The notes under the pieces: generated by a model
Database searches by the model: none
What the model was told of the DNA's origin: nothing
Seen by the model: only the letters and a program-made list of their open reading frames with translations
Position numbers and translations under genes: made by a program
Assembly: GCF_964204865.1 (NCBI RefSeq)
Contig: NC_135250.1
Span: 19,521,395-19,585,394 of the forward strand
From: Styela clava
Taxonomy: Eukaryota > Chordata > Ascidiacea > Stolidobranchia > Styelidae
Reading direction: 5' to 3'
Length of the DNA stretch: 64,000 bases
In this document: piece after piece, positions 1 through 58,445 of the stretch
Layout of the letters: the number at the start of each line of letters is the position of its first letter
Position numbering within the stretch: position 1 is the stretch's first letter

Positions 1-290
1 AAGTCAAATATCTAATATGGTGGCTGTAATAGTAGTAGCAAAATGTTTCCTCCGAAATTACCATTGGTTGAAGGTATTTAATTTAAATACGATATGTCTG
101 TTTAAGAGGAGAAACAAACCGTTATATATGATATTACCATTGATTGAAAGTTTATAACTTAGACTTTTCACTCATCGATTCATACTTTTTAGACAAATAG
201 TCAAATTAACTGGTTTAATTGAACAGAGTTTGAACTGTTAGTAATATTTCAATTTTTTCGTAAATTTTATTAAAATTAGAGATTTCCCAC

Positions 291-340
291 AAAACAGAGG
301 AACGCTCCACGATTGTGCGTGTCATCCTTGCGCAGGGGCC

Positions 341-371
<31 letters not shown>

Positions 372-397
372 TTCTTATGTACACTCGAAAGTAGTAC
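291..397 (-). ncRNA. U6: U6 snRNA copy 1, class A
   Basis: Full 107 nt with both catalytic motifs and the six-pair telestem. Differs from the class consensus at U23A and A91G. Confidence 0.85.
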
Positions 398-730
398 ACT
401 CCACACACTCCCAGTGGTCGTATATGTACGTAGTAACTAGAAGTCAAATATCTATTATAGTGGCTGTAATAGTAGTAGCAAAATGTTTCCTCCGAAATGA
501 CCATTGGTTGAAGGTATTTAATTTAAACACGATATGTCTGTTCAAGAGGAGAAACAAACCGGTATATATGATATTACCATCGATTGAAAGTTTATAATTT
601 GGGCTTTTTACTCATCAATTCATACTTTTTGGACAAATATTCGAATTCACTGGTGTAATTAAACAGAGATTGAACTCTTAGTAATATTCCACTTTTTTCC
701 TGAAATTGAGTGAAATTAGAGATTTCCCAC

Positions 731-837
731 AAAATAGAGGAACGCTTCACGATTGTGCATGCCATCCTTGCCCAGGGGCCATGCTAATCTTCCCTGTATC
801 GTTCCATTTTTTCCATAAGTACACTCGAAAGTAGTAC
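731..837 (-). pseudogene. U6 copy 2, class B (ACAGGGA)
   Basis: Full length with normal 5' stem-loop, but A45G breaks the ACAGAGA box that pairs with the 5' splice site. Also C66G, A76G and C79U. Confidence 0.75.
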
Positions 838-1170
838 ACTCCACACACTCCCAGTGGTCGTATATGTACGTAGTTATTAGAAGTCAAATATCTATTATGG
901 TGGCTGTAATAGTAGTAGCAAAATGTTTCTTCCGAAATTACCATTGGTTGAAGGTATTTAATTTAAATACGATATGTCTGTTTAAGAGGAGAAACAAACC
1001 GTTATATATGATATTACCATCGATTGAAAGTTTATAACTTGGGCTTTTTACTCATCAATTCATACTTTTTGGACAAATAGTCGAATTAACTGGTTTAATT
1101 GAACATAGATTGAACTCTTAGTAATATTCCACTTTTTTCCTGAAATTGAGTGAAATTAGAGATTTCCCAC

Positions 1171-1245
1171 AAAACAGAGGAACGCTTCACGATTGTGCGT
1201 GTCATCCTTGCGCAGGGGCCATGCTAATCTTCTCTGTATCGCTCA
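1171..1245 (-). pseudogene. U6 copy 3, truncated
   Basis: The 3' two-thirds are present up to the telestem arm (G36 type). The 5' stem-loop, TATA-like and PSE-like parts are missing: the sequence runs from TATCGCTCA through a short repeat of TCGCTCA straight into spacer. The unit is 157 bp short. Cannot be a functional U6. Confidence 0.85.
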
Positions 1246-1453
1246 TCGCTCAAAATATGTCTGTATAAGAGAAGAAACAAACCGTTATATATGATATTAC
1301 CATAGATTGAAAGTTTATAACTTGGAATTTTCACTCATCGATTCATACTTTTTAGACAAATAGTCAAATTAACTGGTTTAATTGAACAGAGATTGAACTG
1401 TTAGTAATATTCCACTTTTTTCGTAAAATTTATTAAAATTAAAGATTTCCCAC

Positions 1454-1503
1454 AAAATAGAGGAACGCTTCACGATTGTGCGTGTCATCCTTGCGCAGGG
1501 GCC

Positions 1504-1534
<31 letters not shown>

Positions 1535-1560
1535 TTCATATGTACACTCGAAAGTAGTAC
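1454..1560 (-). ncRNA. U6: U6 snRNA copy 4, class A
   Basis: No difference from the class A consensus seen. Promoter spacing is normal. The spacer beyond its promoter carries the minisatellite insert at 1706-1725. Confidence 0.9.
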
Positions 1561-1705
1561 ACTTCACACACTCCCAGTGATCGTATATGTACGTAGTAAT
1601 TTGAAGTCAAATGTCTATTATGGTGGCTGTAATAGTAGTAGCTGAATGTTTCCTCCGAAATTACCATTGGTTGAAGGTATTTAATTTAAATACGATATGT
1701 CTGTT

Positions 1706-54924: not shown

Positions 54925-55258
54925 ACTACGCACACTCCCAGTGGTCGTATATGTACGTAGTAATTAGAAGTCAAATATCTATTATGGTGGCTGTAATAGT
55001 AGTAGCAAAATATTTCTCCCGAAATGACCATTGGTTTAAGGTATTTAATTTGAATACGATATGTCTGTTTAAGAGGAGAAACAAACCGTTATATATGATA
55101 TTACCATCGATTGAAAGTTTATAACTTGGAATTTTCACTCATCGATTCATACTTTTTAGACAAATAGTCAAATTAACTGGTTTAATTGAACAGAGATTGA
55201 ACTGTTAGTAATATTCCACTTTTTTCCTGAAATTGAGTGAAATTAGAGATTTCTCACA

Positions 55259-55365
55259 AAAAAGGAGGAGCGCTTCACGATTGTGCTTGTCCTCCTTGCG
55301 CAGGGGACATGCTAATCTTCTCTGTATCGCTCAATTTTTTTCATATGTACACTCGAAAGTAGTAC
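55259..55365 (-). ncRNA. U6: U6 snRNA copy 126, class C
   Basis: G36-C96; U74G and C79A in the internal stem-loop; motifs intact. Confidence 0.72.
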
Positions 55366-55698
55366 ACTCCACACACTCCGAGTGGTCGTATATGTACGTA
55401 GTAATTAGAAGTCAAATATCTATTATGGTGGCTGTAATAGTAGTAGCAAAATGTTTCCACCGAAATTACCATTGGTTGAAGGTATTTAATTTAAATACGA
55501 TATGTCTGTTTAAGAGGTGAAACAAACCGTAATATATAATATCACCATTGATTGATAGTTTATAACTTAGACTTTTCACTCATCGATTCATACTTTTTAG
55601 ACAAATAGTCAAATTAACTGGTTTAATTGAACAGAGTTTGAACTGTTAATAATATTTCACTTTTTTCGTAAAATTTATTAAAATTAGAGATTTCCCAA

Positions 55699-55748
55699 AA
55701 AATAGAGGAACGCTTCACGATTGTGCGTGTCATCCTTGCGCAGGGGCC

Positions 55749-55779
<31 letters not shown>

Positions 55780-55805
55780 TTCATATGTACACTCGAAAGT
55801 AGTAC
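55699..55805 (-). ncRNA. U6: U6 snRNA copy 127, class A
   Basis: Class A consensus with six-T stop. Confidence 0.88.
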
Positions 55806-56138
55806 ACTTCACATACTCTCAGTGGTCGTATATGTACGTAGTAATTAGAAGTTAAATATCTATTATGGTGGCTGTAATAGTAGTAGCAAAATGTTTCCTC
55901 CGAAATGACCATTGGTTGAAGGTATTTAATTTAAATACGATATGTCTGTTTAAGAGGAGAAACAAACCGGTATATATGATATTACCATCGATTGAAAGTT
56001 TATAATTTGGGCTTTTTACTCATCAATTCATACTTTTTGGACAAATAGTCGAATTCACTGGTGTAATTGAACAGAGATTGAACTGTTAGTAATATTCCAC
56101 TTTTTTCCTGAAATTGAGTGAAATTAAAGATTTCCCAC

Positions 56139-56245
56139 AAAATAGAGGAACGCTTCACGATTGTGCGTGCCATCCTTACCCAGGGGCCATTCTAATCTTC
56201 CATGTATCGTTCCATTTTTTTCATAAGTACACTCGAAAGTAGTAC
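56139..56245 (-). pseudogene. U6 copy 128, class D (ACAUGGA, AGA)
   Basis: Both motifs mutated; 5' stem-loop intact as in copy 58, about 30.8 kb away. Confidence 0.78.
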
Positions 56246-56578
56246 ACTCAACACACTCCCAGTGGTCGTATATGTACGTAGAAATTAGAAGTCAAATATC
56301 TATTATGGTGGCTGTAATAGTAGTAGCAAAATGTTTCCCCCGAAATTACCATTGGTTGAAGGTATTTAATTTAAATACGATATGTCTGTTTAAGAGGAGA
56401 AACAAACCGTTATATATGATATTACCATCGATTGAAAGTTTATAACTTGGAATTTTCACTCATCGATTCATACTTTTTAGAGAAATAGTCAAATTAACTG
56501 GTTTAATTGAACAGAGATTGAACTGTTAGTAATATTCCACTTTTTTCGTAAAATTTATTAAAATTAGAGATTTCCCAC

Positions 56579-56628
56579 AAAATAGAGGAACGCTTCACGA
56601 TTGTGCGTGTCATCCTTGCGCAGGGGCC

Positions 56629-56659
<31 letters not shown>

Positions 56660-56686
56660 TGTCATATGTACACTCGAAAGTAGTAC
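56579..56686 (-). ncRNA. U6: U6 snRNA copy 129, class A, last before the junction
   Basis: 108 nt: one extra base in the A-tract linker. Motifs and telestem intact and promoter complete. Positions 56687-56950 behind it are its promoter and a spacer cut short by the minisatellite. Confidence 0.82.
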
Positions 56687-58445
56687 ACTACACACACTCC
56701 CAGTGGTCGTATATGTACGTAGTAATTAGAAGTCAAATATCTATTATGGTGGCTGTAATAGTAGTAGCAAAATATTTCCTCCGAAATGACCATTGGTTAA
56801 AGGTATTTAATTTAAATACGATATGTCTGTTTAAGAGGAGAAACAAACCGGTATATATGATATTACCATCGATTGAAAGTTTTTAATTTGGGCTTTATTC
56901 TCATCAATTCATACTTTTTAGACAAATAGTCAAATTCACTGATGTAATTAAGCGTTTTAGCAGGGTTATTGGTGTTTTTTGACGGGTTTTCACTGTTTTT
57001 AAGCGTTTTAACAGGGTTATTGGTGTTTTTTGACGGTTTTTCACTGTTTTTAAGCGTATTGGCAGGGTTATTGGTGTTTTTTGACGGTTTTTCACTGTTT
57101 TTAAGCGTTTTAGCAGGGTTATTGGTGTTTTTCGACGGTTTTTCACGGTTTTTAAGCGTTTTAGCAGGGTTATTGGTGTTTTTTGACGGTTTTTCACTGT
57201 TTTTAAGCGTTTTAGCAGGGTTATTGTTGTTTTTGACGGTTTTTCACTGTTTTTAAGCGTTTTAGCAGGGTTATTGGTGTTTTTTGACGGTTTTTCATTG
57301 TTTTTAAGCGTTTTAGCAGGGTTATTGGTGTTTTTTGACGGTTTTTCACTGTTTTTAAGCGTTTTAGCAGGGTTATTGGTGTTTTTTGACGGTTTTTCAC
57401 TGTTTTTAAGCGTTTTAGCAGGGTTATTGGTGTTTTTTGACGGTTTTTCACTGTTTTAAAGCGTTTTAGCAGTGTTATTGGTGTTTTTTGACGGTTTTTC
57501 ACTGTTTTTAAGCGTTTTAGCAGGGTTATTGGTGTTTTTTGACGGTTTTTCACTGTTTTTAAGCGTTTTAGCAGGGTCATTGGTGTTTTTTGACGCTTTT
57601 TCACTGTTTTTAAGCGTTTTAGCAAGGTCATTGGTTGTTTTTGACGGTTTTTCACTGTTTTTAAGCGTTTTAGCAGGGTTATTGGTGTTTTTTGACGGTT
57701 TTTCACTGTTTTTAAGCGTTTTAGCAGGGTAATTATTGTTTCTTGACGGTTTTTCACTGTTTTTAAGCGTTTTAGCAGGGTTATTGGTGTTTTTTGACGG
57801 TTTTTCACTGTTTTTAGGCGTATTAGCAGGGTTATTGGTGTTTTTTGACGGTTTTTCACTGTTTTTAAGCGTTTTAGCAGGGTTATTGGTGTTTTTTGAC
57901 GGGTTTTCACTGTTTTTAAGCGTTTTAGCAGGGTTATTGGTGTTTTTTGACGGTTTTTCACTGTTTTTAAGCGTTTTAGCAGGGTTATTGGTGTTTTTTG
58001 ACGGTTTTTCACTGTTTTTAAGCGTTTTAGCAGGGTTATTGGTGTTTTTTGACGGTTTTTCACTGTTTTTAAGCGTTTTAGCAGGGTTATTGGTGTTTTT
58101 TGGCGGTTTTTCACTGTTTTTAAGCGTTTTAGCAAGGTTATTGGTGTTTTTTGGCGGTTTTTCACTGTTTTTAAGCGTTTTAGCAGGGTTATTGGTGTTT
58201 TTTGACAGTTTTTCACTGTTTTTAAGCGTTTTAGCAGGGTTATTGGTGTTTTTTGACGGTTTTTCACTGTTTTTAAGCGTTTTAGCAGGGTTATTGGTGT
58301 TTTTTGATGGTTTTTCACTGTTTTTAAGCGTTTTAGCAGGGATATTGGTGTTTTTTGACTGTTTTTCACTGTTTTTAAGCGTTTTAGCAGGGATATTGGT
58401 GTTTTTTGACGGTTTTTCACTGTTTTTAAGCGTTTTAGCAGGGTT

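Follow-up and report, generated by a model that had tools for sequence, protein, structure and literature searches.

The window, that is the whole stretch of 64,000 nucleotides of Styela clava DNA that was analysed, holds a tandem array of units of about 440 bp, each with a U6 gene, and next to it a satellite of short period.

1..56948, minus strand: tandem array of ~440-bp units (129 cmscan matches, unit alignment with a 440-bp majority sequence, TRF)
1171..2461, minus strand: rearranged stretch close to where the window begins, at low coordinates (spacings of 283, 458 and 549 bp)
1706..1725, minus strand: 20-bp inverted piece of the 51-bp satellite within a U6 unit (k-mer match)
56948..64000, plus strand: 51-bp satellite, adjoining the U6 array and running to the window end (TRF: 138.6 copies, 95% matches)

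A covariance model search of the whole window (cmscan with Rfam RF00026, at the gathering score) gave 129 matches, on the minus strand throughout, the first at 291-397 and the last at 56579-56686. All 129 cover model positions 1-105, and with that the full model, and they score 77.1-106.4 bits against a gathering cut-off of 44. The original prediction, which had proposed this search as a check, had counted 129 U6 copies head to tail at a spacing of about 440 bp, most of them exactly 107 nt. The count proved to be exact, the gene length is 107 nt in 112 of the 129 copies, and the distance from one U6 to the next is 440 bp in 97 and 441 bp in 13 of 128 cases (median 440, extremes 283 and 549). 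With a fuzzy anchor scan the count was 126, three short of the cmscan list that superseded it. TRF independently gave a 440-bp array at 2283-56949, preceded by rows at 1-1241, 972-1524 and 2174-2395. In the rearranged patch, the U6 at 1171-1282 has a non-matching 5' part and a 109-bp duplication lies at 2174-2395. Window base 1 falls within a unit and the low-coordinate end of the array lies beyond the window, and at the high-coordinate end the array breaks off in the middle of a spacer, at 56948. Being a long head-to-tail array of similar units that are homogenised in blocks, it behaves like a satellite as well as being a set of U6 genes.

The 51-bp satellite has a higher-order lag of 1629 bp, and contains long open frames, which we attribute to a period that is a multiple of three; a forward reading of 300 residues (X at stops) had no match in PDB. 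No RNA genes other than U6 were found in the window at the Rfam gathering score, one 4-kb stretch searched at E up to 1 gave U6 alone, and no tRNA was found. Three exact DNA patterns had no relatives among viral contigs, and neither had an exact pattern from the 51-bp satellite among genome contigs. An exact DNA pattern of the 42-nt U6 core matched once, in a contig of a bacterial MAG; the U6 on that contig differs in its 3' part and is probably a eukaryotic contaminant.

The U6 unit, its intact and its broken copies

Read in the direction of the gene, the unit is a 333-bp spacer followed by a 107-nt U6 gene. The 5' end of the predicted RNA is GUACUACUUUCGAGUGUAC, and its 3' part resembles that of animal U6. 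Three copies can serve as examples:

54818..54924, minus strand: the modal U6 gene of 107 nt, its core exact (a sequence that 17 of 129 copies have)
39836..39942, minus strand: broken copy, with ACAGAGA changed to ACATGGA and AGC to AGA (80.2 bits)
8185..8291, minus strand: member of the variant U6 class, whose long-range stem has 36G-96C and whose internal stem-loop has 59U

The modal gene scores 106 bits. Its core, which runs from ACAGAGA to the internal stem-loop inclusive, is exact; its 5' stem-loop has 7 bp, a single bulge and UUCG as the loop; and positions 33-38 pair with 94-99 in a long-range stem of six pairs. The 17 identical copies are scattered from 1454 to 55699. Folding energy gives no support, as the modal gene does not lie below its shuffles (z-scores of 0.24, -0.79 and 0.04). 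Upstream of the gene, at -29 to -24, where a U6 TATA box is expected, 121 of the 129 copies have CATATA (124 in aligned columns). PSE-like stretches lie at about -70 to -30, a string named for its position being found with at most one mismatch in 122 copies (125 in aligned columns), and TTTT stands at the 3' end of every copy. Strings that could be the TATA-like and PSE-like elements of the prediction are thus present in most copies and an oligo-T stop in all, with the PSE named by position alone.

Intact and broken genes are mixed in the array. A complete 7-bp 5' stem-loop is possible in 103 of the 129 copies, ACAGAGA is present in 98, and the stretch from ACAGAGA through AGC in 87. The exact 42-nt core occurs in 49 copies, or in 65 if the U variant at position 59 is allowed, and is missing from 80. 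All sequence checks are passed by 28 copies when applied strictly, and a relaxed set holds 51 of the 129. One cluster of 11 units has the exact core in none of them, and its majority sequence carries both ACATGGA and AGA.

Pair 36-96 is A-U in 83 copies, G-U in 27, G-C in 19 and A-C in none. The class with 36G, 96C and 59U keeps this pair and gains a pair between 59 and 76, and the 36G classes lose the pair 33-99, a pair that is broken in 19 out of the 56 distinct sequences. The test of the pairs used the copies with a length of 107 nt, 112 in number with 56 distinct sequences, and the other 17 of the 129 were excluded for their length. Only one of 20 pairs was altered on both sides, a level that 481 of 500 shuffles reached. 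Paired cells made up 92.6% against 91.9% in the shuffles, and further pair types numbered 11 against 11.9. Cells with changes on both sides were 8 against 2.7 in shuffles that ignore shared descent, and shared descent can explain this excess.

Block duplication and exchange between units

The array grew by copying of multi-unit blocks, of which a block of nine units is the clearest.

36327..54469, minus strand: region of the three longest runs of recently copied blocks (6-12 units each, lag 9 or 10, 3.96-4.4 kb, 99.6-99.8% identical)

Mean identity is 93.7% over all pairs of units and 92.9% between neighbours (lag 1), and the best of lags 1-29 is lag 9, with 94.6%. Runs of at least three units at 98% identity or more and a fixed lag number 35, at many different lags. 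The longest, 12 consecutive units at lag 9 (3.96 kb), is 99.58% identical, and exact 600-mers recur most often at distances of 3969 and 3962 bp. The units also exchange sequence with each other. For the 64 variable sites that are common, r2 is 0.26 at less than 40 nt but 0.05-0.09 at more than 240 nt, and the share of pairs with all four gametes rises with distance from 0.23 to 0.63-0.79; linkage therefore decays within the unit in the manner that such exchange produces. Satellites and rDNA evolve by unequal crossing-over and conversion, and we read the mechanism here as the same two processes.

The quarters of the array differ in age. Mean nearest-neighbour identity is 98.1% in the first quarter of the array and 99.5% in the last, and the exact core is found, from the first quarter to the last, in 8 of 32, 8 of 32, 10 of 32 and 23 of 33 units. 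The youngest quarter is consequently mostly intact and the oldest mostly not (right against left half, P 0.004). Having a 99% twin did not make an exact core significantly more frequent (35 of 83 units with such a twin, 14 of 46 without one, P 0.26).

Selection and the standing of the array

From a tree that ignores conversion and comprises the distinct units, 110 in all, we inferred 1.49 changes per site in the gene, 1.31 in the distal spacer, 1.11 in the 70 bp upstream of the gene and 1.48 in the 42-nt core, and non-CpG changes were 1.34 per site in the core and 1.26 in the spacer. The gene changes about as often as the spacer, and no selection is therefore seen on single copies. Pairwise diversity was highest in the distal spacer (0.069), followed by the gene (0.061) and the 70 bp upstream (0.042). 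Of the 117 singletons, 28 lie in the gene, where 28.5 are expected by length, and 65 in the distal spacer; the other 24 lie in the 70 bp upstream, at a higher density (0.34 per site) than the distal spacer shows (0.25). In none of the four clusters that have more than five units was a singleton test significant; core diversity was below that of the spacer in two (0.028 against 0.046, and 0 against 0.030 in the broken class) and above it in the other two (0.057 against 0.039, and 0.043 against 0.039). In those recent block pairs that were compared, differences are slightly more frequent in the gene (13 of 2661 sites) than in the spacer (25 of 8325). Purifying selection on single gene copies was accordingly not detected among these copies of one array, where redundancy can hide it.

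Nor are the promoter-like strings specially kept: the TATA-like string is equalled in retention by 46 of 435 six-base windows, and the PSE-like one by 47 of 420 windows. The slowest window of 20 nt, which lies at -41, does not stand out (P 0.78). There are weak signs that working copies matter. In aligned columns 18 units have the modal gene, and 9 of 227 overlapping spacer windows do as well; the stretch from -65 to -22, picked after the profile had been seen, has 39 inferred changes against 58 expected (P 0.04); and the pairing of 36 with 96 is kept.

The reading that we favour, with moderate confidence, is a tandem cluster of U6 genes with satellite-like turnover, of which the intact minority is probably transcribed. 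The founder of the array would have been a working U6 gene, and transcription of those copies that are intact would be by RNA polymerase III, with the TATA-like, and PSE-like, elements at 24-70 bp upstream as its promoter. Redundancy across dozens of copies may let single broken copies be tolerated, and selection, if there is any, would act on the number of intact copies and not on each copy. The prediction of U6 genes that are at the same time a satellite, intact mixed with broken, fits the data, and it is the satellite half that has been strengthened, by the block duplications, the exchange between units and a rate in the gene that is not detectably below that of the spacer.

Because redundancy hides selection on single copies, sequence alone cannot separate a live cluster from a dead satellite, and the absence of detectable constraint in the gene is also what a dead satellite is expected to show. 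A U6 gene may have been trapped in a tandem repeat and amplified without being used, while the U6 of the cell comes from a separate locus, and we regard this, the chief rival of the favoured reading, as a real possibility, if not a likely one. Gene and spacer mutate alike, the level at which the modal core is kept (49 of 129 units) is matched by 31% of 292 overlapping spacer windows, the exact core is missing from most copies, the broken class of 11 units has itself been amplified, and the array adjoins another satellite, all of which an unused repeat would explain. The 17 identical genes with an exact core, spread over the array, and the majority of exact cores in the youngest quarter speak against it, but neither is decisive.

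Whether the cluster is live or dead, its copy number or block structure could have been inflated by mis-assembly, and near-identical blocks of 3.96 kb are typical points of failure for an assembler. We consider this unlikely, as 110 of the 129 units are distinct in aligned columns and the near-identical runs stand at many lags instead of being one perfect copy. A bolder version of the favoured reading, which we think improbable, is that the array is the main U6 source of the genome, kept as a satellite in which selection acts on the intact total only and the copies drift, and that a second isoform amplified along with it (36G-96C and 59U, the long-range stem being paired anew and the internal stem-loop tighter) is used in the germ line or early embryo. 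That selection keeps the variant as a distinct isoform class of a developmentally special array, e.g. an oocyte or maternal one, has a precedent in the maternal U1 and U6 genes of a repeat-rich region of zebrafish chromosome 4 (PMC11075544) and agrees with the kept 36-96 pair and the gained 59-76 pair, but is likewise improbable, given that the pair changed on both sides is matched by the shuffles, that further pair types are fewer than in these, that descent can account for the excess of both-side cells, and that the 36G classes lose pair 33-99.

U6 is the catalytic RNA of the spliceosome and the most conserved of its RNAs. Dozens of intact genes amid broken ones, with no detectable constraint on the single copy, make this array a clean case for asking how the family of an essential RNA gene is kept up, and whether it is kept working by copy-number turnover rather than by selection copy by copy. 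The array also supplies class-diagnostic positions (20, 33, 36, 44, 45, 55, 59, 66, 96 and 103 of the 107-nt gene) that can be scored with ordinary small-RNA reads.

Comparison with known arrays and satellites

Animal U6 arrays are of a known kind, and Xenopus has tandem U6 genes. The case for calling the array unusual is weaker than stated, since U6 arrays are on record in several animals (PMC3706591) and a region rich in U1 and U6 genes in zebrafish (PMC11075544). Kojima and Jurka 2013 (PMC3706591) describe U6 arrays in salmon, medaka, stickleback, Daphnia, oyster and Capitella, and the likeness to ours is that many U6 genes stand together in an array. The Styela clava array has a 440-bp unit, higher-order blocks and most of its copies off the exact core. 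Arrays of fish, Daphnia, oyster and Capitella also carry Dada transposons, at GCGCAA or GCGAAA (PMC3706591), whereas the largest spacing between neighbours here is 549 bp and there is therefore no room for an insertion of that size. A sea squirt draft genome is given as having 83 U6 loci (PMC5006418) and U6 is listed among the tandem multigene families of morabine grasshoppers (PMC7754599); passages of a paper on mosquito ncRNA (PMC4300560) contain nothing about U6 arrays. In the open-licence literature, we found no report of a 440-bp unit, nine-unit blocks or equal rates of gene and spacer for a U6 array, nor, in titles and the openings of abstracts, any publication on a U6-derived satellite, which does not prove that there is none.

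Zebrafish chromosome 4 has large numbers of maternal-type U1 and U6 genes (PMC11075544), and resembles our locus in the abundance of U6 genes in a repeat-rich region. The zebrafish genes are however interspersed with protein-coding genes and reported to be transcribed in oocytes, whereas those of Styela clava form a tandem array. The frog satellite PcP190 is 5S rDNA-like and reported to be transcribed (PMC11675491), and is likewise an RNA polymerase III gene sequence within a tandem satellite unit that has a spacer-like part. It combines a highly conserved 5S-like part with a hypervariable one, whereas in Styela clava gene and spacer vary alike and genes with an exact core remain. In its divergent neighbours (92.9% at lag 1) and near-identical multi-unit blocks, the array is finally like the higher-order repeats of the alpha-satellite type, a likeness of repeat structure in which the monomer is here the unit of a U6 gene.

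Irregular spacing and a satellite fragment in the U6 array

1171-2461: three consecutive irregular U6 spacings (283, 458 and 549 bp)
1706-1730: inverted 20-bp fragment of the 51-bp satellite, held in a U6 unit

Within 1171-2461 there is a 109-bp duplication, as well as one U6 whose 5' part is without a match, and this stretch is a rearranged patch of the array. At 1706-1730 the satellite fragment is lengthened into the short palindrome CCTGCTAA...TTAGCAGG, and the presence of such a fragment inside a U6 unit shows an earlier contact between the two repeats.

Higher-order structure and open frames of the 51-bp satellite

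56948-64000, plus strand: 51-bp satellite with a 1629-bp higher-order repeat (about 32 monomers)
57221-61672, minus strand: stop-free frame in the satellite

Exact 100-mers of the satellite form 1243 pairs at a lag of 1629 bp. Since its 51-bp period is divisible by three, the satellite contains long frames free of stops, of which the minus strand has one of 1483 aa, the maximum; the minus-strand reading of 57221-61672 contains a frame shift inside the repeat, and is for that reason probably not coding. The protein search of the satellite covered one 300-residue forward reading only, with X at stops, and gave no PDB match.

U6 core in a bacterial assembly

The U6 core (an exact 42-nt stretch, ACAGAGA through the internal stem-loop) has a match at 2281-2370 in contig JAIYDP010000129.1; this contig is assigned to a Verrucomicrobiaceae MAG, where it is likely eukaryotic contamination.
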